Shown: positions 1,103 through 35,325 of the stretch, piece by piece
How positions within the stretch are numbered: the stretch's first letter is position 1
Layout: every line of letters begins with the position of its first letter
Assembly (NCBI GenBank): GCA_020072765.1
Contig: JAIQGD010000055.1
Location: forward strand, 1-37,139
DNA: 37,139 nucleotides
From: Terriglobia bacterium
Lineage (GTDB): Bacteria; Acidobacteriota; Terriglobia; Acidiferrales; UBA7541
Direction: 5' to 3'
The notes under the pieces: generated by a model
The model's database searches: none
What the model was told of the DNA's origin: nothing
Seen by the model: only the letters and a program-made list of their open reading frames with translations
Translations under genes and position numbers: made by a program

Positions 1103-2557
<1,455 letters not shown>

Positions 2558-6734: not shown

Positions 6735-6802
6735 GGTGGCGCTCCCGGTGGGGTTCGTTCGTGTGGTGTCGCGGAAACAGCTCGCCAATCTTGTCATCCG
6801 GC

Positions 6803-6827
6803 GGGGCGCGGCAAGCAGCGCCCCTAC
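6803..6827 (+). repeat. Tailed palindromic repeat, second copy of the mutM-end element
   Basis: Stem GGGGCG/CGCCCC with the internal string CAAGCAG and tail TAC; the last 16 bases are identical to 6259-6274. Confidence 0.65.
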
Positions 6828-6978
6828 TGGTCGTTAGCGGTGTTGATGAAGCAAAAGCAGATCCCTTCCCGCAAGACCACGCGGGACGCAAACGCCGCGC
6901 ACACCGTCCGCAAACAGCGCGGCCGGGTTCGGGATGACAGCTCGGGTGAGTTTTGCCGGGAACATCTGACTCCGGACG

Positions 6979-7947: not shown

Positions 7948-7954
7948 CGCCTAA

Positions 7955-7982
7955 ATTCTAACCGCAGAGGGCGCTTCCGCAA
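7955..7982 (-). promoter_or_regulatory. Putative promoter of the CDF gene, possibly leaderless
   Basis: On the minus strand: TTGCGG (7982-7977), 16-bp spacer, TAGAAT (7960-7955). The start codon at 7947 begins eight bases downstream, about where transcription would start. Confidence 0.45.
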
Positions 7983-8056
7983 CAGGCCGACGGCAGGGTG
8001 GGGAGCGGAAGGGTAAGAGGAGGTGTGACTTGCGCGTGCAGGGGACAGAAACGCAA

Positions 8057-8086
8057 TTGACTTCCCTCTTAGCCTCCGCCTACCAT
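8057..8086 (+). promoter_or_regulatory. Putative promoter of the metallo-hydrolase/PilZ gene
   Basis: TTGACT at 8057-8062, 18-bp spacer, TACCAT at 8081-8086, lying 75 bp before the start codon. Confidence 0.45.
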
Positions 8087-8160
8087 CAAATGAGTTTGAA
8101 TTCCCGCGGCCATCAAGAGAAAGGGCGGGAGGGACACCTTTCTCGAGAGATCCGCCGACT

Positions 8161-9372: not shown

Positions 9373-9381
9373 TTCCGGCTG

Positions 9382-9404
9382 GGCGGCGCTGTGGAAGCGC
9401 CGCC
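9382..9404. terminator. Hairpin between convergent genes, possible bidirectional terminator
   Basis: Perfect 9-bp arms GGCGGCGCT/AGCGCCGCC with a GTGGA loop, exactly between the stop codons of two convergent genes. No T-run follows on either strand, so it may be a repeat or transcript-end stabiliser instead. Confidence 0.4.
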
Positions 9405-9406
9405 GA

Positions 9407-9664
9407 TCAGGCGATATCGGGAAGAGCGGAAAGCTGCGATTCGATATCGGCCAGCGCGCGATTCAACTGGTCACTGTAGCGCTGGGCGCGGCTGGATTGC
9501 AGGTCCATCTGCACGCGCGCGCGGGAAAGAAGCAGCACTTCCCTGCGACGGCGCACATCAACCTGCCCTGGCGTGATCCCTGCTTTGCGTGATGTCGTGC
9601 GATCGTGTGTCAAAGAGGCCTCGATTTGGAGTTCCACAGCCTTGCTTTCCCACCCTTTAGCCAT
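9407..9664 (-). CDS. Small conserved hypothetical protein
   Basis: An 85-residue charged, helical protein beginning MAKGWESKAVELQIEAS. I recall small acidobacterial proteins with a similar MA(R/K)GWESKxVE start, but know no function. The middle is Arg-rich (DVRRRREVLLLSRARVQ) and the C-terminal half (LNRALADIESQLSAL) could form a short coiled coil. No signal peptide or membrane segment. It lies 100 bp downstream of the RND pump start region on the opposite side of that operon's end, and is convergent with the metallo-hydrolase gene. Confidence 0.6.
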   Translation of the reverse strand: MAKGWESKAVELQIEASLTHDRTTSRKAGITPGQVDVRRRREVLLLSRARVQMDLQSSRAQRYSDQLNRALADIESQLSALPDIA

Positions 9665-9763
9665 ACAGTGATTTTACAACACCCGGGACGGTGCATCACG
9701 ACTATTTTTGAGCAGCTGCGGGCGGGAATATTCACACTGCGCGCAGCGCAACTGCCGTTTGGC

Positions 9764-12700
9764 TCATCCTTCCGGCTGGTGGCTGGCGGGTTGGCGTGGC
9801 TGCAGGTAGAAGTGAATGGTCGGAGTGAAGATGAGCGACAGCACCATGGAGCTGAAAATACCGCCGATGACGGCGATGGCCAGGGGCTGCAGCATCTGCG
9901 CGCCGGCTCCGATGGCAAAGGCCAGCGGCAACATGCCGGCGATGGTGGCCAGCGCGGTCATGGCAATGGGGCGCAGGCGGCGGCGGCCAGCCTGAATCAT
10001 CGACTCCCGCGCGGAGAAGCCGAGGCTGCGGAAGCGCTGCTCGGCATCGAGGAGCAGGATGCCGTTTTTGGCCACAATGCCCACAACCATAATCATGCCC
10101 ATGAAGGAGGCGACGTTGAAGGTCGTGCCAGTGACGAGCAGGGCGAGAAACGCGCCGAAGGTGGAAAGCAGCGCGGATGCGAGAATCGCGGTGGGCGCGG
10201 AAAAGGTGCGGAACTCGAACATCAGGACCACGAACAGCAGCAGCAGGACGATGAACAGTACCTTCAGCAGGTCGTGGAACGACCGCTGCTGCTCCTGATA
10301 GGTGCCGCCATACTCGACGTGGATGGAGGGCGGCAGGTGCAGCGCCGCGACGGTCTTCTGCACTTCGGCCATGCCGGCGCCGAGGTCCACACCCTCGAAG
10401 CGGCCCGTGACAGTCACCAGACGCTGGAGATTTTCGCGGCGGATCTCGGTCTGGCCGGCTTCGGTTTCCATGGTGGCCAGTGAACCGAGCGTCGCGGTGC
10501 GGCCGGTGGCGCTGGCCAGCAACGTGTTGCTCATGCGGTCCAGCGACGCGCGGCTCCTCTCCGGGAACCGCACGCGGATGGGATAGGAGCGATCGTTCAA
10601 GATGACGGGAGCGGCGGCGGGTTTGCCTTCGAGCACGGCCGCGGCATCGGTGGCAATCTCCTCGGGAGTGAATCCGGCGCGGGCCGCGGCAAAACCGTTG
10701 ACGTGAAACGTGACGGCAGGGCCGCTGATGGTGTTTTCGATTCCGTCGAGGACATCCACCACGCCGTGAATCTTGCCGATGGCATCGCCGACGCGCGGCG
10801 CGGCCTCGGCCAGCACGCGCGGATCCTGCGCAAACAGTTTGATGACGATGGGCTCGGGCTGGCTGGTGAGGTCCCCGATCATGTCCTGCAGGACCTGGAC
10901 GAACTCGACCCGGGCGGCGGGCTCGGTCTGTTCGATCTGTTTGCGGATATCATCCATGATCTCGTCGATATCGCGATGGCGGTTCTTCTTCAGTCGGACG
11001 GTGAAGTCGCCGCGGTTTACCTCGGTGACGGCAGCCAGGCCGAGCTGCAATCCCGTGCGGCGCGAGGTGTTTTCGACTTCGGGCGTGGCGCGCAGAATGC
11101 CTTCGATGTGCTGCAGGATGCGGTTGGATTCGGCGAGCGAACTGCCGGGCGGCGTGAAGTAGTCGAGGATGAAGCCGCCTTCGTCCATCCCGGGCAGCAG
11201 ATCGGTGCCGAGAAAGTTGTAGCAAACGAAGGCGGAAACGACGATCAGGGCCGAGGCGACGACGAGCATCGCCGGACGCTTCAACACCGCGTTCATGCAG
11301 CGCTCGTAAAACTGGACGCCTCGCCCAAAGAGCCCCGAAAAATGGGCCTCTTCGACGGCCAGCACGGCATTGACGTCCGGGACGGTCTCCACGGCGGGCT
11401 CGGCGCCGGCGTCCGGCGCTTGCGGCGCGAGGGTTTCACCCTTGCGGCGCACCAGGTACTGGCTGAGCACGGGCGTCCAGGTGAGCGCCAGCAGGAGCGA
11501 AGTGAACAGCGCCGCGGTCATGGTGATGGCGAGGGCGCGGAAGAAACTGCCCGTGACGCCGGTGATGGAAATGAGCGGAAGGAAGACCACGATGGGCGTG
11601 ACGGTGGAGCCGATCAGCGGGACGGCCATCTCGCGCAGCGCGGTCTGAATGGCCTGCAGGCGCCCTTCCCCGGCGTCGCGATGGAGGACGATGTTCTCGA
11701 GAACCACGATGGCGTCGTCCACGACCAATCCCACGGCGGCGGCCAAGCCGCCCAGCGTCATCAGGTTGAAACTCTGCCCCATCCATTTGAGAACGATGAA
11801 GGTGATGAACAGCGTGACGGGAATGACCAGGCCGGCGATCAGCGAGGTGCCCCAATCGTTGAGGAACAGAACGAGAACGGCCGAAGAAAGCAGCAAGCCG
11901 AGCAGCACGGCGTCGCGCACGCTGGCGATGGAATCGTGGACGATGCCGGACTGGTCGTAAAAGGGCTCCAAATGGACATCGGGGGGCAGCGACGGCCGTA
12001 ACGCCTCGATCTGGGCGTGCACGGCATCGGCGACGGCCAGGGTATTGCCCTCAGGCTGGCGGTTCACGCTGAGCAGCACGGCGTTTTTGCCATTGGCGGT
12101 GACGATGGTATAGACCGGCGCCGACGACGGGGCCACGGCGCCGATGTCCGCGAGGCGAATGGGAACGCCGCCGGGCGACATCTTCACCACAATCTGGCCG
12201 ATCTGTTCGGGCGAACGCACCTGTCCGCTGACGAGGCCGAGGACCAGCTGGTGATCGTGTTCGATGAGTCCGGGCGAATCCATCAGGTTGGTGCGGCGAA
12301 TGGCTTCCAGGATGTCGGTGACGGTCACGCCGGCCGCGGCGAGCCGCGCCGGATCAGGCGTAACCTGAAATTCCGGCACGAGGCCGCCTTGCACGAGCAC
12401 CGAGGCCACGCCGTCGAGCCGGTTGAGGCGCGGCTTGATGTCATAGGAGGCAATTTCCCAAAGCTTGGTCGGCGGGAGCGTGTCGGAGGTGAGGCTGTAG
12501 CCGAGAATCGGAAACGTGGCGAAGGTCAGGCGATGGGTTTCGAGCTTGACCGTTGATGGGAGTTCGGACTGCAGGCGCGCGAGAACCGCGTCCACGCGCT
12601 GCAGGGTCAAGACCATGTCGGCGTCCCAGGCGAAGAAGAGGTCCACTTCGGCCGAGCCGCGGCTGGTGATCGACTGCACCTTCTGCAGGCCGGGCACGCT

Positions 12701-18047: not shown

Positions 18048-19238
18048 TTACTCGAGCGATTTGTTGGGGGCGCGGAGGGCATCGGCCAGGTCTTTCATGA
18101 ACTGCGCGGCGCGGGCTCCGTCGATCACGCGGTGATCGCTGGACAAAGTGAGCGTCATCACGGGGCGCACTTCGGGTTTGCCGTCGACGGGCACGACGCG
18201 GTCCGCCATGCCGCCCACGGCCAGGATGGCGGCCTGGGGCGGCGTGATGATGGCGGTGAAGGCATCGACCTCATACATCCCCAGATTGCTGATGGTGAAG
18301 GTGCCGCCGGAAATATCGGCGGGGCGCAGCTTGTTGGCGCGGGCGCGGTCGGTCAAGTCGCGGCGCTGCGCGGAAATTTCACCGACTTCGAGCGTGTCGG
18401 CCTTGCGGATCACGGCTCCCACGACGCCATCTTCGACGGCCATGGCGACGCTGATGTTGACGTCGGGGTTGGGGCGAATCGTCTGGCCGGTCCACATGGA
18501 ATTGACGCGAGGATGCTTGCGCAAAACGCGGGCCACCAGCGCGATGAGCAGGTCGGTGAGCGTGACGCGCACGCCGCGGGATTTCTCGATCGCCGGGCCG
18601 AGCCGCTGGTGCGCCGCGCGCAGTTCGGTGGCGTCGACGTCGCGCACGACGAAGAAATGCGGCACGGTCGTCCAGCTTTGCGAGGTTCGCTCGGCCATGA
18701 GCCGGGCAATCTGGCTGAGCTTTTCGCCTTCGGCAGGAGCGGCGGCCGGGGAGACTTTGGCATTCGCCGCGGCTTGCACGTCTTCTGCTGTGATTACGCC
18801 GTCAGGGCCCGTGCCGCGCAGCTGGCTCACGTCGATGCCGAGCTCCTGGGCGAGGCGCCGGGCCTTGGGAGAAATTTGCGGCGCCGCGGCGGCGGAGGGT
18901 CCGGGAGCCGCGGCGGCGGTGGTCACGGCGGCGCGCTCTTGTGCGCTGGTGCCGCGGGCGGATGGCGCCGCGGGGCCGCTTTGCACGGGAGGCGCTTCGC
19001 CGGGCTGCACCAGCCAGGCGATGGTTTGTCCCACGGGGATCTCCGCGCCCGCCTGTGCCGTGATGCCGGCAAGGATGCCGTCGCCGGGCGCTTCGACTTC
19101 GACCACGGCCTTATCGGTTTCAATCTCCAGGAGCGGCTCACCCTTGACGACGGGTTCGCCTTCCTTTTTCCGCCAAGCCAGAAGCTTGCCGGTTTCCTGC
19201 GCCATTTCCAGGGCGGGCATTACGACGCTGATAGCCAT
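18048..19238 (-). CDS. 2-Oxoacid dehydrogenase complex, E2 acyltransferase subunit
   Basis: A 396-residue dihydrolipoamide acyltransferase. The lipoyl domain (1-80) carries the lipoylated Lys43 in EIETDKAVVEVEAPGDG; an Ala- and Pro-rich linker follows; the peripheral-subunit-binding domain is at about 121-157 (ISPKARRLAQELGIDVSQLRG, then GPDGVITAEDV); the catalytic core runs from 170, ending in the active-site box with His369 and Asp373 (SSDHRVIDGA). It moves the acyl group from the E1 ThDP to CoA. The E1 alpha and beta genes lie upstream in the same operon, with the M24 gene between (30-bp gap). No E3 gene is in the window. Whether the substrate is acetyl, acetoin-derived or branched cannot be told. 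Confidence 0.93.
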   Translation of the reverse strand: MAISVVMPALEMAQETGKLLAWRKKEGEPVVKGEPLLEIETDKAVVEVEAPGDGILAGITAQAGAEIPVGQTIAWLVQPGEAPPVQSGPAAPSARGTSAQERAAVTTAAAAPGPSAAAAPQISPKARRLAQELGIDVSQLRGTGPDGVITAEDVQAAANAKVSPAAAPAEGEKLSQIARLMAERTSQSWTTVPHFFVVRDVDATELRAAHQRLGPAIEKSRGVRVTLTDLLIALVARVLRKHPRVNSMWTGQTIRPNPDVNISVAMAVEDGVVGAVIRKADTLEVGEISAQRRDLTDRARANKLRPADISGGTFTISNLGMYEVDAFTAIITPPQAAILAVGGMADRVVPVDGKPEVRPVMTLTLSSDHRVIDGARAAQFMKDLADALRAPNKSLE

Positions 19239-19268
19239 AGGGTTCCAGGGTTCCTGAGAACGAGGTCC

Positions 19269-20615
19269 TCAGTCGGTGGCGGCCGCTCCTTCTTTTTTAG
19301 CGCTTGCTTCAACCATTTTGACGACGTCCGCGCTGGGCGGCGCTTCGTGCTCGCGCGTGGTGGACATGGGGCCATTGACGGTGTGGTAGTGCGCGCCGGC
19401 GACCATAAGCTGTTCGGCCGGGAAGCGCGTGATGACCTCGTGGCCCGTTTCGGTGACCACAATTTCTTCCTCGATGCGCGCGGCGCTCCAGCCATCGGTG
19501 GACGGCCAGAACGTCTCGAGCGCGAAGACCATGCCGGGCTTGATTTCGTGGGAATGTTCGAGCGACACCAGGCGGCTGATGATGGGCTTCTCCCAGATGG
19601 CCAAGCCGATGCCGTGGCCGAATTGCAGGGCGAAGGCCGCCTCTTCGTCGGGGAAACCGAATTCCTGCGCCTTGGGCCAGACGGCGGCGATTTGCGCGGT
19701 GGTGCGTCCGGGCTGGATCAGGGAGATGGCGGCGTCCAGATAATCGCGGCAGCGCTTGTAGGCGTCGATCATGGCGTGCGACGCGTAGCCGATGGAAAAG
19801 GTGCGGTAGTAACAGGTGCGGTATCCCATGTAGGAATGCAGGATGTCGTAGTACACGGGATCGCCGGGGCGCAGGACGCGATCGGAGAAGACGTGCGGGT
19901 GCGGGTTGCAGCGTTCTCCGGAGATGGCGTTGACGGCCTCGACATATTCCGAACCGAGATCGTACAGCACTTTGCTGGCGAGGCCGACGGCCTGGTTTTC
20001 GCTCATGCCGGGCTTCATGGCGCGGTACAACTCATCGTAAGCCGCATCGACCATCATGGCCGAGTGGTTCAGGAGCGAGATTTCATCCTGCGTCTTGATC
20101 ACGCGCGCGTCGGACATGAGCTGCTGGCCGTCCACGACGGTGATGCCCTCGCGCTGGAGGGCGAACAGAATCGGCGGCTCGACCACGTCGATGCCGAGCG
20201 GTTCCTTGTGCAGGCCGCGCTTTTCGAGCTCGACCTTGATCTTGCGGGCCACGTTTTCGGCGCGGCCCATTTCCGGCGACATCGCGCCGCGCATCAGGGA
20301 AATTCCGGCGCGCGAGCGATCGCCCAGCCACGGGCAATTCAACTGATGGTGCTTGGCGGCCGAGCCGAAATCCCACAGGATGGGCTCGTCATTCTGCGGC
20401 AGGAGCGTGAAGCGGCTGATTTTGTCCTGCGCCCAGGCGCCGATGTGCGTGGCGGTGAGATAGCGGACGTTGTTCATATCGAAGCAGAGCAGCGCGCCCA
20501 TCTCCGACTTCGCCAGGAGCGCCTTGGCGCGCGCCAGGCGCTCCCGGCGCAGCCGGTCGAAATCGATGCGACTCTCCCAATCCACCGCCATGGTTCCGTA
20601 CGTCTTTAGTGCCAC
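19269..20615 (-). CDS. M24-family metallopeptidase homologue with an altered metal site
   Basis: A 448-residue protein of the creatinase/Xaa-Pro peptidase (M24, pita-bread) fold, with an N-terminal creatinase-like domain (about 15-165) and C-terminal metal-binding domain. Ligand positions: D257 (VYYDILHS), then 11 residues on, where a second Asp is expected, Cys268 (GYRTCYYRTF); H334 (FGHGIGL), E367 (FALETFW) and E382 (RIEEEIVVTETG). Four of five ligands are therefore kept. Length and layout (the NPHP box before the first Asp) recall DddP, the M24-type DMSP lyase, but DddP keeps Asp at that place. Start is GTG 20615 with AGGAGGG five bases upstream; the E1 beta gene ends 24 bp before. Function unknown; it may act on a small molecule used by this operon. 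Confidence 0.88.
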   Translation of the reverse strand: MALKTYGTMAVDWESRIDFDRLRRERLARAKALLAKSEMGALLCFDMNNVRYLTATHIGAWAQDKISRFTLLPQNDEPILWDFGSAAKHHQLNCPWLGDRSRAGISLMRGAMSPEMGRAENVARKIKVELEKRGLHKEPLGIDVVEPPILFALQREGITVVDGQQLMSDARVIKTQDEISLLNHSAMMVDAAYDELYRAMKPGMSENQAVGLASKVLYDLGSEYVEAVNAISGERCNPHPHVFSDRVLRPGDPVYYDILHSYMGYRTCYYRTFSIGYASHAMIDAYKRCRDYLDAAISLIQPGRTTAQIAAVWPKAQEFGFPDEEAAFALQFGHGIGLAIWEKPIISRLVSLEHSHEIKPGMVFALETFWPSTDGWSAARIEEEIVVTETGHEVITRFPAEQLMVAGAHYHTVNGPMSTTREHEAPPSADVVKMVEASAKKEGAAATD

Positions 20616-20639
20616 GATGACCCTCCTATTCGAATGCCG

Positions 20640-21635
20640 TTAGGCTTTGCCGCAGAGCGCGCGGGCCGCTTCGAAGACGGTCTGTTCGGTTGGTACCGTC
20701 AAGTCTTCGAGCGGCGGGGAAAACGGAATCGGCACGTGCATCGCGCCCATCCGCTTCACCGGGGCTTCCAGGCTGTAGAATGCGCCTTCGGAAATGACCG
20801 AAGCAAGTTCCCCGGTCACGCCGTAGCGTCCGTAACCTTCGTCCATCACGATGACCCGCGAGGTCTTTTTCGCGGACGCGATCAGCGTTTGCTCATCGAG
20901 CGGCCACATCGTGCGGGGATCAACGACTTCCGCGGCGATGCCGATCTTCTCGAGAAGATCGGCCGCGCCCAGCGCGACCTGCACCATGCTGCTGGTGGCC
21001 ACCAGCGTGATGTCCTTGCCCGCGCGCTTCACATCGGCCACGCCCAGCGGGATGGTGTAGTCCTCCGCCGGCACGGGGCCCTTTAACTTGTACATCATTT
21101 TGTCTTCGAAGAAGACCACGGGATTTTCGTCGCGGATCGCCGTTTTCAGAAGGCCCTTGGCATCGTAGGGCGTCGAGGGCATGACGACCTTGAGTCCGGG
21201 GACGTGGCTGACCCAGGCATGGAGCGACTGCGAATGTTGCGCCGCCGAGCGGCGCGTGGCTCCCAGCGTGGTGCGCAAGACCATGGGGACCTTCCACTTC
21301 CCTCCCGACATGTAATGAATCTTGGCGGCCTGGTTCACGAGCTGATCCATCGTGAGCGTCAGGAAGTCACCGAACATGATGTCGATGACGGGACGCATGC
21401 CCGTCATGGCCGCGCCCACGCCCACGCCGGTGAAGCCCGCTTCGGAGATGGGCGTATCGATCACGCGGTTGGTGCCGAATTCCTCGACCAAGCCCGACAG
21501 GACTTTGAAGGGCGTGCCGGCTTCGGCCACGTCTTCGCCGAGGATGCAGACGCGCGTATCGCGGCGCATCTCTTCGGCGAGCGCCTCGCGCACCGCTTGT
21601 GCAAACGTTAGTTCCCGCTGCGCAGTTTCAGGCAT
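20640..21635 (-). CDS. 2-Oxoacid dehydrogenase E1 component, beta subunit
   Basis: A 331-residue transketolase-like E1 beta subunit (PdhB/AcoB/BkdA2 type). Typical boxes: ILGEDVAEAGTPFKV near the start, TPISEAGFTGVGVGAAMTGMRPV, FLTLTMDQLVNQAAK, GGKWKVPMVLRTT, and the C-terminal transketolase domain with EVVDPRTMWPLDEQTL. It pairs with E1 alpha to decarboxylate a 2-oxo acid on ThDP. I chose ATG 21635 (MPETAQRELT), which overlaps the E1 alpha stop by eight bases and fits translational coupling; the frame extends upstream to 21686 inside E1 alpha but lacks support. Confidence 0.94.
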   Translation of the reverse strand: MPETAQRELTFAQAVREALAEEMRRDTRVCILGEDVAEAGTPFKVLSGLVEEFGTNRVIDTPISEAGFTGVGVGAAMTGMRPVIDIMFGDFLTLTMDQLVNQAAKIHYMSGGKWKVPMVLRTTLGATRRSAAQHSQSLHAWVSHVPGLKVVMPSTPYDAKGLLKTAIRDENPVVFFEDKMMYKLKGPVPAEDYTIPLGVADVKRAGKDITLVATSSMVQVALGAADLLEKIGIAAEVVDPRTMWPLDEQTLIASAKKTSRVIVMDEGYGRYGVTGELASVISEGAFYSLEAPVKRMGAMHVPIPFSPPLEDLTVPTEQTVFEAARALCGKA

Positions 21636-22626
21636 AGACGTCTTGCTCCACTTCCGCCAAGGCGGGATAAGGCGCCGCGATGGCAAAATCGACCGCGGCT
21701 TGCATTTCGGCCTTTACCTCGGACTCGATCTGGCCGAGCGCGGCGGAATCGGCAATCTTCTGGCCGGTGAGCCATGCGGCAAACAGCAGGATGGGATCGC
21801 GCTGCGTCTTCCACTCCTGCTCTTCCTGCTTGGAGCGGTAGTATTCGCGGCTGATGTCGCCCACGTGGTGACCGGTGTAGCGGTAGGTGTTGCACAGCAG
21901 GAGCGCGGGGCCATTTCCCTGGCGGGCGCTCTCGATGAGCCGGGCGGCCACCGCATGCACGGCGCGGACATCCTGGCCGTCGACGCTCTCGGAAGCAATT
22001 CCGAACGCCTTTCCGCGGGCGAGAATATCGCCGGCGGTGGTCTCGGAGAAGTGCGTGTACTCGTTGTAGAGATTGTTTTCGCAGACGTAAATCACCGGCA
22101 ATTTCCACAGCGACGCCAGGTTCATCGTCTCATACAGAAGGCCCTGGCCGAGGGCTCCTTCGCCGAAAAAGCAGACCGCCACCTGGCCCGTGCCCAGATG
22201 CTTGGCGGAAAAAGCCGCGCCCGTGGCAATTCCGGCGCTTCCGCCGACGATGGCGTTGGCGCCCAGATTGCCGGTATCCGGATCGGCGATGTGCATCGAG
22301 CCGCCCTTGCCCCGGCAGTAGCCGGCTTCTTTTCCCAGGAGTTCGGCGAACATCCGGTCCGGGGCCGCGCCTTTGGCGAGGCAATGCCCATGGCCGCGGT
22401 GCGTGCTGGTGATGTAGTCGTCCGGTCGAAGCGCTTCGCAGATGCCCACGGCCACCGCTTCCTCGCCCACATAGAGATGCGCGAGGCCGGGCATCAGCGC
22501 GCGGAGGTAGAGATCGTTCACGCGATCCTCGAAATGCCGGATCATCTGCATGCAGCGGTACATCCGAAGCCACTTCTCGGCCGTGGGCTCGGATACGACA
22601 CTCGATGGGTGTGCGGCTGTGGTCAT
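21628..22626 (-). CDS. 2-Oxoacid dehydrogenase E1 component, alpha subunit
   Basis: A 332-residue E1 alpha subunit of the AcoA/PdhA type. It has the active-site loop segment THRGHGHCLAKG (74-85), CRGKGGSMHIAD, and the ThDP/magnesium motif, here written GEG (155-157) rather than GDG, through to NLASLWKLPVIYVCENN (169-185). The Glu for Asp change is chemically mild and I believe it is found in other family members. The start codon overlaps the preceding dehydrogenase stop by four bases. With E1 beta and E2 it would make an acyl-CoA from a 2-oxo acid; the closest by eye are acetoin- and pyruvate-type complexes, but the substrate is not settled. Confidence 0.94.
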   Translation of the reverse strand: MTTAAHPSSVVSEPTAEKWLRMYRCMQMIRHFEDRVNDLYLRALMPGLAHLYVGEEAVAVGICEALRPDDYITSTHRGHGHCLAKGAAPDRMFAELLGKEAGYCRGKGGSMHIADPDTGNLGANAIVGGSAGIATGAAFSAKHLGTGQVAVCFFGEGALGQGLLYETMNLASLWKLPVIYVCENNLYNEYTHFSETTAGDILARGKAFGIASESVDGQDVRAVHAVAARLIESARQGNGPALLLCNTYRYTGHHVGDISREYYRSKQEEQEWKTQRDPILLFAAWLTGQKIADSAALGQIESEVKAEMQAAVDFAIAAPYPALAEVEQDVYA

Positions 22627-23504
22627 CGCTTGACTCCCGACATGTGCGCCAGCACGTCGAACACGACGGCGAAATCTTCCTGGACCAGGCCCATGGCGCG
22701 CGCCGCGGTCAGAAACTCGTTGGCTACCGCCGTGGTGGGCATGGGAACGTCCACCTGCCGGCCCAGTTCGAGCGCAAGCAGCATGTCTTTCTGCATCATG
22801 TTGACGTTGAACCAGGCCTCGTCCGGCAGCTTCAGGACGAACGGCCCGCGATACTGCACCATGGGCGACGCCACGGCGCTATGAACGAGAACGTCCACGG
22901 CGGTTTCGCGCGCGATGCCGCTCTTTTCGGCGAGCAGGATGCCTTCGGAAAACGCCAGCATCTGCACGGCGAGACTCAGGTTCGTGGCGATTTTCATCAC
23001 CAGCGCCTGGCCGTTGTCGCCGACGTAGGTCACCTTGGGACCGATGTCATCGAGCAGCGGCTTGACGCGCTCGAAGGTTTGCTTTCGGCCGCCCACCATC
23101 ACCGAGAGTTTTCCCTGCTGGAGGGTCACCACGCTGCCGGACACCGGCGCATCGACCATATCCGCGCCCTTTTCCCGGACCTTGGCGGCAATCGAGCGGC
23201 TGAACGCCGGGCTGACCGTGCTCATATCGATGAGCAGCTTGCCGGGGGCCAGGCTGGCCAGCATTCCGTCGGGGCCTTCGGCAATGGCCTGCAGGGCGGC
23301 GGAATTGGTCACCATGGAGAAGGTGACATCGGCGGCGGCCACGACGGCGCGCGGCGAGTCCGCCCATTTCATGCCCTTTTGGATCAGCCACTCCGCTTTG
23401 GCACGGGTGCGGTTATATCCTGTCACGGTGTGGCCCTTGCTGAGGAGGCGATTCACCATCTCGCCGCCCATCACTCCGAGTCCGATGAATCCGAGGTTGG
23501 CCAT
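22623..23504 (-). CDS. 3-Hydroxyisobutyrate dehydrogenase-family (beta-hydroxyacid) dehydrogenase
   Basis: A 293-residue NAD(P)-dependent dehydrogenase of the beta-hydroxyacid family (HIBADH, tartronate-semialdehyde reductase, GLYR). The Rossmann motif is GFIGLGVMG (5-13); the second strand ends YNRT (30-33), and the Arg there suggests NADP rather than NAD. The substrate loop is DAPVSGS (118-124) and the catalytic Lys171 and Asn175 are in ALVMKIATNLSL. It would interconvert a hydroxy acid and a semialdehyde. It begins 13 bp after the regulator gene and overlaps E1 alpha, so it is in the operon. Exact substrate unknown. Confidence 0.92.
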   Translation of the reverse strand: MANLGFIGLGVMGGEMVNRLLSKGHTVTGYNRTRAKAEWLIQKGMKWADSPRAVVAAADVTFSMVTNSAALQAIAEGPDGMLASLAPGKLLIDMSTVSPAFSRSIAAKVREKGADMVDAPVSGSVVTLQQGKLSVMVGGRKQTFERVKPLLDDIGPKVTYVGDNGQALVMKIATNLSLAVQMLAFSEGILLAEKSGIARETAVDVLVHSAVASPMVQYRGPFVLKLPDEAWFNVNMMQKDMLLALELGRQVDVPMPTTAVANEFLTAARAMGLVQEDFAVVFDVLAHMSGVKR

Positions 23505-23517
23505 GAGGTTCGGTCTC

Positions 23518-24231
23518 CTAGCTCACACGAGAAATTTGCAGGCCTTGATTGCGCGAATCTTCGCGCACCTGCTGCAGATGGGCGCGCATCGCTTCGCGCG
23601 CGCCCTGCGCATCGCGATGCTCGATGGCATCGAGAATTTGTTTGTGATGATGCTGCCCCCGTTCAGGGCCTCCCTCGACCTTGAAGATGCGCATGCGCTG
23701 CTCGCGCAGCACGGCCACGATGGAGTCGATCAGGGACAAGATCAGGGGATTGCCGGCCGCTTCGGCCAAGGCCAGATGGAAGTCCAGATCGGCCTCGATG
23801 AAGGCCTCCGGGTCGCGCCGGGAGTGATCCATCACGGCGACCGCCTCGCGCATCGAGGCAATCGCGTCTTCATCGGCGCGCGAAGCCGCCAGCGCGGCGA
23901 TCTCGGGTTCGAGGATTTCGCGAACCTCGACCACATGGGCGGCTCCCTTCTCCGGCCCGGTGCGCAAAATCCAGTCGAGGGTCTGGCGAATGGAATGCGA
24001 CGTCCCGTCGGTGACGAACGTGCCGCGCCCGGGATGCGCTTCCACCAGGCCCTTTTCACGAAGCGCCTTAACGGCTTCGCGGACCGCCGTGCGGCTCACT
24101 CCGAACTGGTGCGCCAGTTCGCGTTCGGCGGGAAGCTGGTCTCCCGGCTTCAAAGCACTCTTGAGAATGGAGTCCTCAATCTGCTGCACGATTTGTTCGT
24201 ACAGACGTGAAGTTTGGATGACCTTATACAT
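23518..24231 (-). CDS. GntR-family transcriptional regulator, FadR/FCD subfamily
   Basis: A 237-residue regulator. The winged helix (about 8-75) has LPAERELAHQFGVSRTAVRE and the wing HPGRGTFV; its Arg-Glu, Ser-Arg-Thr and Arg-Glu positions parallel the DNA-contacting residues of E. coli FadR (PAERELS, GVTRTTLRE). The C-terminal FCD ligand domain shows EADLDFHLALAEAAGNP, the later pair HHHKQILDAI and the closing EAMRAHL, with His residues that normally hold a metal near the effector. ATG 24231 has GGAGGAG upstream; GTG 24255 is in frame but lacks one. It lies second in the operon. A FadR-like operator at 25853-25867 on the operon promoter is its likely target, so autoregulation as repressor is inferred. 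Confidence 0.92.
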   Translation of the reverse strand: MYKVIQTSRLYEQIVQQIEDSILKSALKPGDQLPAERELAHQFGVSRTAVREAVKALREKGLVEAHPGRGTFVTDGTSHSIRQTLDWILRTGPEKGAAHVVEVREILEPEIAALAASRADEDAIASMREAVAVMDHSRRDPEAFIEADLDFHLALAEAAGNPLILSLIDSIVAVLREQRMRIFKVEGGPERGQHHHKQILDAIEHRDAQGAREAMRAHLQQVREDSRNQGLQISRVS

Positions 24232-24296
24232 GACGGCGGCTCCTCCACATATCACGCTGCTCCTGGCCCCTGCAACTCATGCTCCGACCCTGCGCC

Positions 24297-25661
24297 TTAC
24301 TTCACCCAGACCGTCTTGATATTCATGAATTCGCGGATTCCGTAGACGCTCAGCTCCCGCCCGTATCCGGATCGCTTCACCCCGCCGAACGGAACACGGG
24401 GGTCCGAGGCTACCATTTGATTGATGAAGACCATTCCCGCGTCCAGTTCATTGGTGAAGCGTTCCTGCTCGTGCGCATCATTGGTCCAGGCGCTGGCGCC
24501 CAATCCAAACCGGGTGTCATTGGCGATGCGGATGGCGTCGTCAATATTCTTCACTCGGAACAGGGACGCGACCGGGCCGAAGAACTCCTCGCAATAGGCC
24601 GGGGAATTTTTCGGGACATCGGTGAGCACGGTGGGCAGGTAGAAATTGCCGGGGCGATCGGCGGGCTTGCCGCCGGTGAGAACCCGTGCTCCGGCCTGCA
24701 CCGACTTCTGCACATCGGCGTGGAGGGAGGTCACGGCGTCCGCGGTGGCCAGCGGCCCGACGTCGGTGCTCGCGTCGAAGGGATCCCCCAGGCGCAGCGA
24801 CTGCATGGCCGCGACAAACTCGCGTTCGAATTGATCCGCCACTTTCTCCGCCACAATGAAACGCTTGGCCGCAATGCAGGACTGGCCGTTGTTGGCCGTG
24901 CGCGCCTTCACCGCCGTGGCTACGGCGTCCGTGAGATTGGCGCTGGGCATCACGATGAACGGATCGCTGCCGCCCAGCTCCAGAACTACCTTCTTCACTC
25001 GCTTGGCCGCGCCCATGCCCACCTGGATGCCGGCATCTTCGCTGCCGGTCAGCGTGGCCGCGGCGATGCGGGGGTCGTCGAGGAGGCGATCGACTTTCGC
25101 CGATCCGATCAGCAGCGTTTGGAACGCCCCTTCGGGGAAACCGGCCCGGCGCAAAACGTCTTCAATCTTCAGCGCGCACTGCGGGACGTTGGAGGCGTGC
25201 TTGAGCAGGCCCACATTTCCGCCCATCAATCCCGGCGCAATGAACCGAAATACCTGCCAGAAGGGATAATTCCAGGGCATGACGACCAGGATGACTCCCA
25301 GCGGCTGGTAGCGAACAAAGCTTCGGCTGGCCGTCGTGGCGATCACTTCATCGGCCAGCATGCGCTCGGCGTGCTCGGCGTAGTAGCGGCAGGCCCAGGC
25401 GCACTTGGCGGCTTCGTCGACCGCCGAACGCAGCGTCTTTCCCATCTCGGTGGTCATGAGCACGGCGAGTTCGTTCTTTTCGCTTTCCAGGATGTCGCCG
25501 GCCTTTTTCATCATGCCGGCCCGCTCCGCGAAGGAAAGACTGCGGAATTTCGGAAAGGTCTGCACTGCCCGCTGGATCTTCTCTTCAATTTGAGAGTCGG
25601 ATATGGGCTCAAAACTCTTCACAAGCTGCCCGGTCGCCGGGTTCACTGTCGCGATGGCCAT
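24297..25661 (-). CDS. NAD(P)-dependent aldehyde dehydrogenase, succinate-semialdehyde (Sad/YneI) type
   Basis: A 454-residue aldehyde dehydrogenase close to the shorter Sad/YneI group: TVNPATGQLV at the N-terminus, MPWNYPFWQVFR with catalytic-pocket Asn131, general base Glu228 (VVLELGGSDPFIV), nucleophile Cys262 (NNGQSCIAAKRF), and EEFFGPVASLFRV and PFGGVKRSGYGRE near the end. It would oxidise a short semialdehyde such as succinate semialdehyde. ATG 25661 has AAGGA eight bases upstream; the GTG at 25667 is too close to it. It is the first gene of the catabolic operon, with a long leader of about 190 bases. Confidence 0.93.
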   Translation of the reverse strand: MAIATVNPATGQLVKSFEPISDSQIEEKIQRAVQTFPKFRSLSFAERAGMMKKAGDILESEKNELAVLMTTEMGKTLRSAVDEAAKCAWACRYYAEHAERMLADEVIATTASRSFVRYQPLGVILVVMPWNYPFWQVFRFIAPGLMGGNVGLLKHASNVPQCALKIEDVLRRAGFPEGAFQTLLIGSAKVDRLLDDPRIAAATLTGSEDAGIQVGMGAAKRVKKVVLELGGSDPFIVMPSANLTDAVATAVKARTANNGQSCIAAKRFIVAEKVADQFEREFVAAMQSLRLGDPFDASTDVGPLATADAVTSLHADVQKSVQAGARVLTGGKPADRPGNFYLPTVLTDVPKNSPAYCEEFFGPVASLFRVKNIDDAIRIANDTRFGLGASAWTNDAHEQERFTNELDAGMVFINQMVASDPRVPFGGVKRSGYGRELSVYGIREFMNIKTVWVK

Positions 25662-25857
25662 TTCCACGATCCTTGCTGGAGAATTTTTCCGTCCCTCTTC
25701 GAGAGAGACCGAGTTGGCTGCCCCGCATGTCCACCAGGGTGGCAGCGACGAAACAACAAACCATTAGGGCTGAAACAAATACCTATGGCCGAGGACCAGC
25801 TAAATTGCAGGAGGGTCCTTAAGTTAGCTTTGAAAATCTAGCCAACCGGCTCACTGG
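25662..25857 (-). promoter_or_regulatory. Long 5' leader of the catabolic operon
   Basis: About 190 untranslated bases between the predicted transcription start and the aldehyde dehydrogenase start codon. They can form a hairpin with arms GCTGCC (25717-25722) and GGCAGC (25741-25746) and a small CTCTTCGAGAG hairpin at about 25695-25705. I do not recognise a known riboswitch. Confidence 0.35.
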
Positions 25858-30097: not shown

Positions 30098-31621
30098 TTA
30101 AGGCGCTGGCTCCAGATCGCCTCGCCACCATCGCGCGGAATAGACGATCACCGCGGCGGCCAGCCATCCGGCGGCGTACATCGGCTGCGCCTTCCACCGG
30201 AAGATCGCCGAATGCATCATGCCGAACCAGGAAAACACGGATGCGACCAGGCACCATACGGCGGCGCGGCCGAAGTTCCGGTCGATGACCTCGGTGATGA
30301 CCGCCGCGACGACCAGCACCAGAAACAGGAAGCCGTTGCCCAGCCCCTGCAAAGACGACCAGTAGATCGAGCTGTTCAGCGCCGCTTGCACCGCGGGATT
30401 CGCGGCGGAAAGCTTCAGCGCGGGAAGCGCGGAGTTCACCGCCGCGGATACCACCGCCCCCGTCGGCAAAACGAGACCGAGAAGCAGCGCGCTCAGATAC
30501 TTGCGGTCGACGCGGCGCAAAGCCGCCAGCCCTACGCCCACCGAGACGTAGGCGATCATGGCCGCCAGAATGGGCCACGGGAAGAGCTGGGCGATGAAGA
30601 TCGTCAGCCCGCTGGTGACCACGAGCAGGAAGATAACGGGCGTCCAGAGGGCGAAGCTGATGCGCGCTCCCATGGCCTTGTAGGGCGGGTGCATGGCGTA
30701 GACCACGGGGGTGATGACGCTGCCCGCGACGCCGCACAGCAGTGTGCCCAGGCCATCCCACGCCACCACGCTGCGCACGTCGTAGTTGTCTCCTGCGGCC
30801 GCGGCTCCCTCCACGGAAGCGATATCCTGCAGGATCTGGTAGATGGCCATGGGCGCAATCACGGAAAGATACGGCACCGCCAGGCCCAGCGCCCGCAACG
30901 GCCCCAGCGAAGCCACGAACGGCGCCCCCAGCGACAATCCCGGCCACGCGGGACGCACATACCCGATGCCGAGCCCTACGGCCAGCGGAATGATCCACGC
31001 GGCGATAAACGGCGGGATTCTCCATCGCGTGATGGGCACGTTGCCCAGGACGCTGGCCGCCACGATGACCAGCGCCACCAGGCCCACCAGTGGCTGATCG
31101 AACACGCGCTGCAGCAGCATCAGGGCGAGGTAGCTATACATGGCGGCCGCGAACACGGTGATCGAGGCGGGCACGGGGATGAACCGCCGGAAGGCCGCCG
31201 CGAAAGGCGCCGCCACCAGCTTGATGATGCCGGTCCACGCGACCGCCGCCGCTCCCACCCGCCACGCAAGAAGTTCGTCATGCGTCTGGAGGTAGACGGG
31301 AACCATGATGGCCAAGGTGTAGGAGATGATCGCGGGGACATTATTGCCGTAGACGTGAGCGGTCACGTCCGCGCGGCCTTCCGTTCTGCGCAGGCTGACC
31401 GCCAGCCAGGTCAGGCCGGCCGACCCGACAAAGAACCCCAGCGCGTATCCGGGCAGAAGGTGGGCAATGCTGAACTCGCGGGAAATTCCCAGCGGTGCCA
31501 GCAGGAACACAGGAATGATCATCTGGGCGATGTTGAAGCCCACCTGCGCAACGGTGGCGTCGATATCCCCGCGTTCCGGGGCCCACCATCGGGGCGATCT
31601 CGAGATCTGGTCGGCTGCCAT
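30098..31621 (-). CDS. NCS2-like membrane permease (xanthine/uracil or guanine permease type)
   Basis: A 507-residue polytopic membrane protein with about 12-14 hydrophobic segments. The segment around 270-310 (IASVEGAAAAGDNYDVRSVVAWDG, then GTLLCGVAGSVITPVVYAMHPPYKAMGAR) resembles the family motif region of NCS2 nucleobase permeases and AzgA, with the usual Gly-Asp and Tyr-x-x-Met-Gly-Ala elements. It is thus a likely proton- or sodium-coupled importer of a small planar molecule. I chose ATG 31621 (MAADQISRSPRW), with GAAGGGA upstream; the frame extends to 31696 without support. It follows the decarboxylase-like gene by 40 bp, so it may take up that enzyme's substrate. Distant from typical members, hence medium certainty on substrate class. 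Confidence 0.78.
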   Translation of the reverse strand: MAADQISRSPRWWAPERGDIDATVAQVGFNIAQMIIPVFLLAPLGISREFSIAHLLPGYALGFFVGSAGLTWLAVSLRRTEGRADVTAHVYGNNVPAIISYTLAIMVPVYLQTHDELLAWRVGAAAVAWTGIIKLVAAPFAAAFRRFIPVPASITVFAAAMYSYLALMLLQRVFDQPLVGLVALVIVAASVLGNVPITRWRIPPFIAAWIIPLAVGLGIGYVRPAWPGLSLGAPFVASLGPLRALGLAVPYLSVIAPMAIYQILQDIASVEGAAAAGDNYDVRSVVAWDGLGTLLCGVAGSVITPVVYAMHPPYKAMGARISFALWTPVIFLLVVTSGLTIFIAQLFPWPILAAMIAYVSVGVGLAALRRVDRKYLSALLLGLVLPTGAVVSAAVNSALPALKLSAANPAVQAALNSSIYWSSLQGLGNGFLFLVLVVAAVITEVIDRNFGRAAVWCLVASVFSWFGMMHSAIFRWKAQPMYAAGWLAAAVIVYSARWWRGDLEPAP

Positions 31622-31661: not shown

Positions 31662-32654
31662 TCAAATCTTGAATGACTCCAAGGTCCCCGGGGCAAACAG
31701 CTCCCGCGGCGTCAACTGGCGCTTCGAGAGGCCCTGCTCGTAGTGATACCGGAGAAAGGTATCGAGCGTGCGCACGTTGGGCTCAAACCCGTAGGGCCAG
31801 AAATCCTCGCCCATCATGGCGCGGGTTTCCTCCACGTGCCGGAGGAGCCAGGGGAGCATGAATTTCAGCGCCGAGGTGTAATACAGGTCGTGGTAGACCT
31901 CCTGCTGCGCCAGCGCAAACGCTTTGCACAGCGATTGCGCCACCCAGGGATTCTTTTGGTAGACCTCGCGGCGGATCACCACGGTGTGCATGATGGGGAA
32001 AATGCGCGTCTTGAGGAAGTAGGCGCGCTCCACCGATTCGTAATCTTCGAACAGGCGCTTCACAGTTCCGGAGCCACGCGTGAAGGTCGAGGGCGTCGGC
32101 GCGGTATAGATCGCGTCGATCTGGCCGCCATCGAGCATCGCGGCGAGCGTGGAGGTCTCGGGAATCGGCTGCAAGCGAATGTCGGCGGGCAGCGAGAGCG
32201 GGAGTTTTTCAAAGCGTCCCGGCTGCTCGAGCCCGCCGTTGAAATAGGAGACGCTCTTGACCGGGACGTTGTACTCGTCGCTGAGCATGCCGCGAATCCA
32301 GACCCCGGCGGTCATCTGGTATTCGGGGGTGCCCACGCGCTTGCCGATCAGGTCCTTCGGCTCCCGAATGCCGCTGTTGCGGTTGATGTAGATGCAGGAG
32401 TGCCGGAAGAACCGCGAGGGGAACACGGGAATGGCAATGAAGGCAGGCGGCTCGGAAAACAGGGAGAGCACGTAGGAGGACAGCGACATTTCCGCGATGT
32501 CGAACTCCTGATGCCGGAGCATGCGGAAAAAGACTTCCTCGACGGGGAGGCTCAGGCAGGTGAGCTGGATTCCATCGATGGGAATGCGGTCATCGAGAAG
32601 CGCGCGCGTGCGATCGTAATTGCAGCAGGCCATGGACAACGGAAGCTTGGGCAT
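31662..32654 (-). CDS. 4,5-Dihydroxyphthalate decarboxylase-like protein
   Basis: A 330-residue protein with the type-2 periplasmic-binding-protein-like fold of the Pht5/4,5-dihydroxyphthalate decarboxylase group: KLPLSMACCNYDRTRALLDD at the N-terminus, FDIAEMSLSSYVL, IYINRNSGI with DLIGKRVGTPEYQMTAGVWIRG in the centre, and DAIYTAPTPSTF. There is no signal peptide, which fits a cytoplasmic enzyme rather than a transport binding protein. Database annotations use this name loosely, so the reaction is not certain. ATG 32654 is preceded by GGGGAAA. It lies 40 bp before the permease and is separated from the cytochrome gene by a 186-bp gap with a palindromic repeat. Confidence 0.8.
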   Translation of the reverse strand: MPKLPLSMACCNYDRTRALLDDRIPIDGIQLTCLSLPVEEVFFRMLRHQEFDIAEMSLSSYVLSLFSEPPAFIAIPVFPSRFFRHSCIYINRNSGIREPKDLIGKRVGTPEYQMTAGVWIRGMLSDEYNVPVKSVSYFNGGLEQPGRFEKLPLSLPADIRLQPIPETSTLAAMLDGGQIDAIYTAPTPSTFTRGSGTVKRLFEDYESVERAYFLKTRIFPIMHTVVIRREVYQKNPWVAQSLCKAFALAQQEVYHDLYYTSALKFMLPWLLRHVEETRAMMGEDFWPYGFEPNVRTLDTFLRYHYEQGLSKRQLTPRELFAPGTLESFKI

Positions 32655-32791
32655 TAGCGTTTCCCCGGCTGTGGTCGAAGAGGCTCGGCGGTGATCATTC
32701 CGCACCCATCAGGCTGCTAGAGATTACACGGAAAGCATTCCCTGGGGAAGAGTCACGAAGGCGCGCCGGTGCATAGGCCGACGCGGCATCT

Positions 32792-32840: not shown

Positions 32841-33248
32841 CTAATTCAGCAAGGGGATGCTTTTCGCCGGCGGCGGTTGCGGCACGGTGTTCAAGAACGC
32901 GCGAATGTCGGCCAACTCGGCGTCGGACACGACTTTCGCGGTATAGGGAGGCATCTGGCCGGAGGGCTGGCGCACGTAGGCGATGAAATAACGGAGCTCG
33001 ATGGGGCGAGGGGCGAGTCGCGCGCCCGAGACGGGAGATCCTTGACCCTCACGGCCGTGGCATTCGTAGCAGCCGTAACTGGTGTAAAGCCGCTTGCCAT
33101 TTTCGGCGTTCGCGGCGGCGGGAGTCTCCACGGGCTGAGTTTTCGCGGCGTTCTGAGCGTGCGCCTGCTGGCGGGCAAACATCAATAGCGCAGCAGCGGC
33201 CACGAGTGCGGCAAATCTGCCCGTTTTCGACAAAGTGCGAATCTTCAC
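32841..33248 (-). CDS. Periplasmic c-type cytochrome, single haem
   Basis: A 135-residue cytochrome c with an N-terminal signal peptide or anchor (FAALVAAAALLMFARQQAHAQ, cleavage near residue 31). The haem site is C60-x2-C63-H64 (CYECHG) and the sixth ligand is probably Met99 in GQMPPY. The start is GTG 33248, decided by AAGGAGG five bases upstream; the frame extends to 33323 into the ThDP gene without support. It begins 10 bp after the stop of the Tat-exported ThDP enzyme, so the two are translated together and could share an electron-transfer role. Confidence 0.9.
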   Translation of the reverse strand: MKIRTLSKTGRFAALVAAAALLMFARQQAHAQNAAKTQPVETPAAANAENGKRLYTSYGCYECHGREGQGSPVSGARLAPRPIELRYFIAYVRQPSGQMPPYTAKVVSDAELADIRAFLNTVPQPPPAKSIPLLN

Positions 33249-33258
33249 GCCTGCCTCC

Positions 33259-35196
33259 TTAGCGCGGCTGTGTGACCACGTCCACGAGGGCCGGCTCGCC
33301 GCGCTCGACCGCCTCGATGGCACGGCGGATCGCGGGCCCGAGATCCTTGGGATCGGTGATCGGCCCCTCGGCGTGCAGGCCCATGCTCTGCGCCAGCCTC
33401 GCGTAATCGATATTGGGACCGATGAGCGTGGTGCCGATGTTCGCGCGCGTGATGCCGCGGTTGTGCCGGTCGGCCATGCGTTGCACGTGCATCAGCTCCT
33501 GATGATAGCCGCGGTTGTTGTGCATGATGCTCAAGAGTGGAATGCCGTTATGCGCGGATGTCCACAAAATTCCCGGGGCATACATCAAATCTCCGTCGCA
33601 CTGGATGTTGACGCTCAGCCGGCCATACTTCCGGTTGGCCAGGGCGGCGCCGACGGCGGCCGGCGCTCCGTAGCCGATGCCGTGGCCACCCGCTCCACCA
33701 ATGAACTGGTAATGCTTGTCAAAGGCCCACAGGCGCCGCGGCCAGTTGCTGACCCAGGGCGTCACGTCCGACACCAAAGACCAATCCTTGTCCTTGATCT
33801 GCGCCCACAGTTCCGCGCACAGGCGGGCGGTGCTGACCGGGCTGGCGTCCCAGGCATAGGTGGCATCCGTGCGGGCCTGCTCGAGAGCCTTCTGCTGCGC
33901 CGCGGCCAGCTTCGCGCCGCGGTCCTGCAAGGCACGCTTGCGGTCGTCGGTGAGCAGGTGTTTGACCGCCTCGATCAGCGAGGGCAGGGTCGCCTCGGCA
34001 TCGGCGGCCATGGCCAAATCGACTTCCGTGTAGCGCTGGAAGTCCTGGTAATTGTTTTTTAGATACAGGTCGTTGGCCGTGATACTGATCAGCTTGGCCT
34101 TGGGGTTCGCGATGGGTGCGGAGGAGCGATGCAGTTGCTCGCGGAAGGAGTTGACCGTGCCCCAGAAGTCGGTGACTTCGAGGCCCAAAATGACGTCCGC
34201 TTCCCGGACCAGCGCGTCGCTTCGCCCCGACTGGTTCAGGGGGTGACGCGAGGGAAAGTTCATCCGGCCTCCCTGGTCGACCACCGGAGCCTGCAATGCC
34301 TCGGCGAGTTCGATCAGCAACGCCATGCCGGCGGGCGTGCGCGCGACGCGATCGGTGATAATGACGGGGTGTTCGGCCGCCACCAGGAGCCGCGCCGCTT
34401 CGGCCACCGAGCCTGAGTCGCCCTGCGGGGGCGTCGCCAAAGTAAGCTTGGGAACGCGCAATCCGGAATTTTCGGCGACCGGCCGCTCCTGCAGCTCGCT
34501 ATCCGCCACCAGCAGCACCGGCTCCATCGGCGGAGTCATGGCTACTTTGTAGGCGCGCACGGCGGATTCGGCAAAGTGAGGCAGCGAGGGGGGCTGATCG
34601 TCCCACTTGACGAGATCGCGCACCGTCGCCGCTGGATCCTGCGCGCTGTGGACCCATTCCACGCCCGGGCGCCTCATGGTGGCGTCCACCATGTTGCCCA
34701 TAATCATGTAGACCGGCACGCGGTCGCAAAAGGCGTTGTAAATGGCCATCGTAGCGTGCTGTAGCCCCACGGTGCCGTGTAGAAACACCCCCAGCGGCTT
34801 GCCTTCGATTTTGGAATATCCGTGAGCCATGCCGACGGCGGACTCTTCATGGCAGCAGGTGATAAATTCGGGGGCTTTGTTCCCTCCGTAGTTGATGACC
34901 GATTCATGCAGCCCGCGGTAACTGGAGCCGGGATTGGCGGCAATGTATTCGATGCCCAGCGATTTAATGATGTCGACCATGAAGTCGGCACCGGGCCGGT
35001 CGGTGGTGAGCACCTCGACGGCGGCAGGATTGCCGGTTTCGGCTTCCTTCGACATGGGCGGCGGGGCGGCGGGCGGGCGCGGCGCGGGCTCGCCAGCGGC
35101 GGCAACTCCGGTGCCGGCCACGAGCGCCGCCACGCCGGCCGCGGAACCCTTCAAGAAATCGCGACGCTTGACCGAATCTTTTTTCGACTTCGCCAC
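33259..35196 (-). CDS. ThDP-dependent enzyme with a Tat signal (acetolactate-synthase-like fold)
   Basis: A 645-residue ThDP enzyme of the pyruvate oxidase/acetolactate synthase/benzoylformate decarboxylase superfamily. Catalytic Glu at about 117 (CCHEESAVGMAHGYS), a middle domain (about 250-410), and the ThDP-magnesium motif C-terminal: D534-G-D536 through N560-N561 (CDGDLMYAPG ... IMHNN). The N-terminus is a twin-arginine signal, KRRDFLKGSAAGVAALVAG followed by AAAG, with a Pro-rich linker. Export of a ThDP enzyme is unusual; Tat exports folded, cofactor-loaded proteins, which fits. GTG 35196 was chosen for its GGGAGG; ATG 35271 is in frame upstream and less likely. A cytochrome c follows. 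The substrate and whether a flavin is bound are unknown. Confidence 0.88.
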   Translation of the reverse strand: MAKSKKDSVKRRDFLKGSAAGVAALVAGTGVAAAGEPAPRPPAAPPPMSKEAETGNPAAVEVLTTDRPGADFMVDIIKSLGIEYIAANPGSSYRGLHESVINYGGNKAPEFITCCHEESAVGMAHGYSKIEGKPLGVFLHGTVGLQHATMAIYNAFCDRVPVYMIMGNMVDATMRRPGVEWVHSAQDPAATVRDLVKWDDQPPSLPHFAESAVRAYKVAMTPPMEPVLLVADSELQERPVAENSGLRVPKLTLATPPQGDSGSVAEAARLLVAAEHPVIITDRVARTPAGMALLIELAEALQAPVVDQGGRMNFPSRHPLNQSGRSDALVREADVILGLEVTDFWGTVNSFREQLHRSSAPIANPKAKLISITANDLYLKNNYQDFQRYTEVDLAMAADAEATLPSLIEAVKHLLTDDRKRALQDRGAKLAAAQQKALEQARTDATYAWDASPVSTARLCAELWAQIKDKDWSLVSDVTPWVSNWPRRLWAFDKHYQFIGGAGGHGIGYGAPAAVGAALANRKYGRLSVNIQCDGDLMYAPGILWTSAHNGIPLLSIMHNNRGYHQELMHVQRMADRHNRGITRANIGTTLIGPNIDYARLAQSMGLHAEGPITDPKDLGPAIRRAIEAVERGEPALVDVVTQPR

Positions 35197-35325
35197 TGGA
35201 TTCGCCTCCCTTGGATACGACGCGCAGCATATAATATCAGACGCGGCCGCATCGCAGACGTTGGTTTTCATGCCTGGTTGAGGCCCGCGTATACGACGCG
35301 CACTTTCCCATCGGAGGTGGTACTG

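Follow-up and report, generated by a model that had tools for sequence, protein, structure and literature searches.

To our knowledge, ThDP enzymes of the decarboxylase fold are treated as cytoplasmic. Benzoylformate decarboxylase (BFD, MdlC) binds no FAD, and the acetohydroxyacid synthases bind FAD. Where a ThDP intermediate is oxidised, the ferredoxin oxidoreductases achieve this via Fe-S clusters and the pyruvate oxidases via FAD. PoxB is cytoplasmic, peripheral to the membrane, and uses FAD and quinone. Pyruvate:ferredoxin oxidoreductase is cytoplasmic too, with another domain layout, Fe-S clusters and CoA; this enzyme and its relatives are a precedent for the one-electron oxidation of a ThDP intermediate by a metal centre. 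In p-cresol methylhydroxylase-type pairs, a dedicated small c-type cytochrome accepts electrons from a periplasmic dehydrogenase, the catalytic partner being a flavoprotein. No report of an exported ThDP enzyme, or of a ThDP enzyme/cytochrome pair, was found in the literature available as open-licence full texts.

The window examined in this study (the whole stretch of DNA analysed, 37,139 nucleotides) belongs to a soil acidobacterium. This organism appears to export an enzyme of a normally intracellular kind that depends on thiamine (vitamin B1). Together with the small haem protein encoded beside it, its near-constant companion in related bacteria, the enzyme probably carries out 2-oxo acid oxidation on the outer side of the inner membrane, the electrons passing to respiration. 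The features of the locus are listed below.

33259..35196, minus strand: ThDP enzyme with Tat signal, 645 aa, TPP_enzyme_N/M/C (GTG at 35196, stop ending at 33259)
35205..35210, minus strand: ribosome-binding site GGGAGG of the ThDP enzyme, 8 nt upstream of the GTG, read from the sequence
35146..35169, minus strand: twin-arginine motif KRRDFLKG, residues 10-17 of the ThDP enzyme
35095..35196, minus strand: predicted Tat signal peptide, cleavage after AAA (residues 32-34) inferred by eye
34843..34845, minus strand: codon of E118, the invariant ThDP-activating Glu, aligned with Glu47 of benzoylformate decarboxylase
32841..33248, minus strand: 135-aa monohaem cytochrome c carrying a signal, the partner of the ThDP enzyme (GTG at 33248)
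33254..33260, minus strand: ribosome-binding site AAGGAGG of the cytochrome, overlapping the stop codon of the ThDP enzyme, read from the sequence
33057..33071, minus strand: haem attachment site CYECH, residues 60-64 of the cytochrome
32952..32954, minus strand: M99 in the conserved MPP, probable axial haem ligand (role inferred)
31662..32660, minus strand: 4,5-dihydroxyphthalate decarboxylase-like protein, 332 aa, possible pathway neighbour
30098..31621, minus strand: multi-pass permease (by eye), also found close to the pair in L029
35329-36354, divergent from the ThDP enzyme: exported beta-propeller

The putatively exported enzyme has the activating Glu, the His70 equivalent and the Mg2+ site in common with MdlC, and is set apart from it by its predicted export, its cytochrome c partner and an NCBIfam score far below the cut-off. 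Pyruvate oxidase (PoxB/POX) has the same fold, and its respiration-coupled oxidative decarboxylation is the chemistry proposed here; unlike PoxB, the proposed unit is periplasmic and has a cytochrome c as partner. The use of a dedicated cytochrome would be as in the p-cresol methylhydroxylase-type pairs, but with a ThDP enzyme in place of the flavoprotein.

Pfam domains TPP_enzyme_N, M and C were all detected above cut-off, and in order, on the ThDP enzyme. The sequence-only reading had assigned it to the acetolactate synthase/pyruvate oxidase fold; the ThDP-decarboxylase fold was borne out, but the nearest solved relatives by sequence were benzoylformate decarboxylases. An AlphaFold model was obtained with a mean pLDDT of 83 and a pTM of 0.84, residues 1-65 being of low confidence. 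The best alignment of this model was to benzoylformate decarboxylases (Z about 37 over about 515 residues, 23% identity), with the acetohydroxyacid synthases slightly behind (Z about 35), while Foldseek alone placed glyoxylate carboligase at the top among near ties. The best sequence-family match, NF006203 (PRK08327), is a "thiamine pyrophosphate-requiring protein" with no named function; it was full length (residues 66-643) but below cut-off (259 bits against 456), and it leaves the Tat signal outside. The NCBIfam equivalogs for benzoylformate decarboxylase (NF005485, 160 bits against a cut-off of 493) and pyruvate oxidase (NF006377, 73 bits against 742) were not met, and an identity as acetolactate synthase or pyruvate oxidase was rejected because the NCBIfam scores lay far under the cut-offs. 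E118 and H140 (the equivalent of BFD His70) were invariant among the relatives, and the Mg2+ ligand pair D534-N561 was conserved with the same spacing as in BFD (27). An equivalent of BFD Ser26 is likely, and His281 had no clear equivalent. Given the conservation of E118, H140 and D534/N561, the enzyme looks catalytically competent, although its activity and ThDP binding are inferred.

The N-terminus of the 645-aa open reading frame reads VAKSKKDSVKRRDFLKGSAAGVAALVAGTGVAAAGEP, and the coordinates and the KRRDFLKG Tat signal described earlier hold. The Tat consensus is S-x-x-R-R-x-F-L-K, a textbook motif which is fitted by the consensus of the relatives, S-V-[DN]-R-R-[ND]-F-L-K; the remainder of their N-terminus is variable. 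In a tblastn-anchored count over 80 relatives on genome contigs, RRxF preceded the core in 78. The two exceptions were a gene starting at a contig edge and a probable frameshift, in which the signal is read in a different frame. Ahead of the catalytic core there is a hydrophobic, Ala-rich region as well as a disordered linker. The Pfam TAT_signal score fell just below its cut-off (22.3 against 22.7 bits). A translation start after the signal, for example downstream of residue 45, had been named in the sequence-only reading as a result that would refute export. Such a start is unlikely, since RRxF is kept in an otherwise variable N-terminus and the ribosome-binding site lies upstream of the motif. 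Two TatA/B genes were present in the host's 152-contig draft genome and TatC was not detected there; TatC was present in all 11 of the other enzyme-bearing genomes tested. Its absence from the host draft is read as an assembly gap, which is unproven. On sequence grounds, export of the ThDP enzyme is considered very highly probable, without any experimental localisation.

The start codon of the cytochrome lies exactly 10 nt past the stop codon of the ThDP enzyme, and the overlap of AAGGAGG with that stop codon points to translational coupling of the two genes. The description of a monohaem cytochrome c 10 bp downstream with its own ribosome site was thereby confirmed: the protein has a single CxxCH (CYECH) and an N-terminal signal, judged by eye. 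It matched Pfam PF13442 (Cytochrome_CBB3) with 46.8 bits against a cut-off of 27. The CxxCH and M99 (the Met of MPP) were invariant in the family, which also keeps R93 and a C-terminal IPLL tail; these last two are inferred to be candidate docking features. The structure model of the cytochrome was only moderately confident and gave no significant structural match, the cytochrome of p-cresol methylhydroxylase being among the weak matches to this protein. Cytochrome-assembly family genes were present in the host genome. Some family members are a dihaem version of the partner cytochrome, and one (L067:11918-12811, 297 aa) has an apparent C-terminal cupin-like extension (by eye), unlike other members.

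The sequence-only reading had proposed a search for other Tat-signal ThDP enzymes with a cytochrome neighbour, and the pairing turned out to be conserved. A CxxCH protein of the same family was directly downstream of the enzyme in 69 of the 77 loci with enough sequence, mostly with a gap of -4 to 20 nt, and 8 of the 77 had no adjacent cytochrome. When 297 acidobacterial genomes were surveyed, the enzyme was found in 12; the cytochrome family was present in all 12 of these and in 2 of the 285 others (Fisher P about 1e-19, not corrected for kinship). Fourteen of the 15 strong cytochrome-family matches in the 297 genomes adjoined an enzyme gene, which argues that the cytochrome is specific to the enzyme. 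The single non-adjacent match was in a genome with three enzyme copies, two of them without a neighbouring cytochrome. The host carries a second enzyme copy (66% identical) with its own cytochrome (54% identical), the next best host cytochrome being 29% identical, and a tandem duplicate (enzyme-cytochrome-enzyme-cytochrome) was observed in L092 (Bryobacterales). The pair spans Acidobacteriota, several Pseudomonadota classes (Alpha- and Gammaproteobacteria) and one Myxococcota record, and occurs on one Caballeronia and one Novosphingobium plasmid. Because the 80 loci represent the closest relatives, for the most part from one phylum, these counts are not independent. Clustering of neighbours across loci gave no third conserved gene in the unit. 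The exported beta-propeller next door, which had also been pointed to at first, was dropped as a member of the unit, as no homologue was found near any of the 79 relatives compared. Judged from gene order, the conserved ThDP enzyme/cytochrome c two-gene unit is real, and we hold with high confidence that the two proteins are partners.

In two close relatives without an adjacent cytochrome, its place was taken by an Abhydrolase_10 protein that is likely to carry a signal peptide (L030:11978-13459 and L031:10645-12105). The second pair of the host (G000:C114, L116 coordinates 1693-10025) lies beside alternative complex III-like genes on the opposite strand (by eye): multihaem c, 4Fe-4S, NrfD-like and DUF3341-like, together with a molybdopterin-type subunit that has its own Tat-like signal. 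A link to the respiratory chain is possible.

A sister clade of homologues, about 33-40% identical, lacks the Tat signal; the six non-Tat sequences included in the tree formed one clade (support 100/100). The active-site motifs NPGSSFRGLH, HEE, GLxH and KWDDQP are common to both clades. No cytochrome adjoined the enzyme in the whole-genome members or the annotated plasmid loci of the sister clade. An aldehyde dehydrogenase was near the enzyme in 9 of 14 annotated sister loci compared with 2 of 80 Tat-clade loci; the sister-locus proteins were 54-83% identical to the query aldehyde dehydrogenase. This comparison is not corrected for kinship, 5 kb on both sides was available in only 32 of the 80 Tat loci, and most of the 14 sister loci are from Rhodobacterales and rhizobia, which means that these counts cannot be taken as independent. 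Several sister loci add a 2-hydroxyacid dehydrogenase or an alpha-hydroxy acid oxidase. The sister clade is thus like the mandelate pathway in its aldehyde dehydrogenase and, at some loci, in its hydroxyacid dehydrogenase/oxidase, and its gene set, as predicted from gene content, is that of a mandelate-type route, in which a hydroxy acid is converted successively into a 2-oxo acid, an aldehyde and an acid. The exchange of cytochrome for aldehyde dehydrogenase between the clades strengthens the case for oxidative decarboxylation in which the cytochrome accepts the electrons; on the simplest reading, decarboxylation and oxidation are merged into one step in the exported clade.

In the proposed mechanism, the ThDP enzyme would take up ThDP and Mg2+ as it folds in the cytoplasm, before its export by Tat. 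It would decarboxylate a 2-oxo acid to a ThDP-bound carbanion/enamine, which the dedicated cytochrome c would oxidise in one-electron steps; the acyl-ThDP would be hydrolysed to the acid, and the cytochrome would hand the electrons to a terminal oxidase. The unit would thereby take the place of the sister clade's cytoplasmic route, namely a decarboxylase, a free aldehyde and an NAD-dependent aldehyde dehydrogenase. The ThDP fold, the catalytic residues, the conserved Tat motif, the specific pairing and the neighbour swap are shown by sequence comparison; export, decarboxylation, the redox chemistry, direct electron transfer, acyl-ThDP hydrolysis and the substrate class are inferred, and there is no experimental evidence that the enzyme is exported, binds ThDP, transfers electrons or acts on any given substrate. 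The suggestion of a periplasmic 2-oxo acid oxidative decarboxylase feeding the cytochrome remains the best-supported reading, although location, activity, substrate and cofactors have not been shown experimentally. We lean, without firm conviction, towards the two-gene unit being a periplasmic 2-oxo acid (or aldehyde):cytochrome c oxidoreductase that works by this mechanism.

A flavin-free route is favoured because the nearest solved structure is that of an FAD-free benzoylformate decarboxylase, but it is unproven. DXP synthase was shown to pass carbanion electrons to O2, dyes and an oxime without flavin (PMC11908136). That the unit represents a new class, a flavin-free periplasmic 2-oxo acid:cytochrome c oxidoreductase in which the ThDP carbanion reduces a c-type haem directly, is offered only tentatively. 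If true, neither NAD nor quinone nor ferredoxin would be needed for electrons to join respiration outside the cytoplasm. The exported enzyme might instead also bind FAD, as pyruvate oxidase does, with the flavin relaying electrons to the cytochrome. Pyruvate oxidase, acetolactate synthase and glyoxylate carboligase have the same fold, the last of these heading the Foldseek matches; a cytochrome c partner is common among periplasmic flavoproteins, and the p-cresol methylhydroxylase cytochrome was a weak match here. The FAD-free benzoylformate decarboxylases nevertheless gave the top aligned Z (about 37 against 35) and outscored pyruvate oxidase in NCBIfam (160 against 73 bits). Neither rank order in a structure match list nor absence from it excludes FAD, and we regard a flavin relay as unlikely but worth keeping in view.

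We find it rather improbable that the exported enzyme is a non-oxidative decarboxylase or a carboligase/lyase whose neighbouring cytochrome serves another periplasmic dehydrogenase, such as a PQQ quinoprotein. This separate dehydrogenase would oxidise the aldehyde or make the substrate. Ten quinoprotein gene matches near enzyme loci and the non-oxidative nature of the nearest solved relatives are in keeping with this idea, but the cytochrome tracks the ThDP enzyme and the unit has no third conserved gene. Lastly, the twin-arginine stretch could be unused and the enzyme cytoplasmic, the adjacency of the cytochrome reflecting co-regulation only. The failure to find TatC in the host draft genome and a TAT_signal score 0.4 bits under the cut-off would be concordant with this. 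Against it stand the fit to the Tat consensus, the RRxF kept in 78/80 relatives, the hydrophobic region and linker ahead of the core, and the sister clade, which lacks the signal as well as the cytochrome; a cytoplasmic enzyme is accordingly held to be very improbable.

Were the periplasmic oxidoreductase reading to be correct, an exported family with a dedicated cytochrome c would put 2-oxo acid decarboxylation in the periplasm, in direct connection with respiration. It could also be a natural case of electron transfer from ThDP to haem, for which no report was found. Members of the family are distributed across uncultured Acidobacteriota and occur in some Proteobacteria; their gene, for which the usual annotation is no more than thiamine pyrophosphate-binding protein, would become a testable respiratory enzyme.

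An attempt to derive the substrate from conserved neighbours failed for lack of a third conserved gene, and the scattered genes are suggestive only. The 4,5-dihydroxyphthalate decarboxylase-like protein of the window matched PDB 9jp7 (E 3e-84), and the permease had no Pfam, NCBIfam or PDB sequence match. The closest relative, L029, likewise has decarboxylase-like and permease genes as neighbours of its pair, in a different arrangement. Five sister-clade plasmid loci in phthalate-type oxygenase clusters carry homologues 42-44% identical to the window's decarboxylase-like protein, and the Caballeronia pair is near a ring-hydroxylating dioxygenase set. TcuA, TctA, tannase, UbiD and PrpF recur in small numbers near enzyme loci, and PcaD-like, aromatic-acid MFS and quinoprotein genes are scattered near them. 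An aromatic or polycarboxylic 2-oxo acid is a plausible substrate, on weak evidence. Tricarballylate dehydrogenase (TcuA) was on the opposite strand, <=10 kb from the enzyme, in L070, L071, L073, L083, L088, L095 and L102.

No RNA family, including the TPP riboswitch, reached the Rfam gathering threshold in the window. A ThiC-like thiamine-biosynthesis gene was identified by eye at 1109-2557. A minus-strand run at 18048-25667, also assigned by eye, contains genes for the E1 alpha, E1 beta and E2 components of a 2-oxo acid dehydrogenase complex, E2 and E1 being separated by a gene for an M24-type peptidase-like protein. The run also encodes an aldehyde dehydrogenase, a GntR regulator and a protein resembling 3-hydroxyisobutyrate dehydrogenase.
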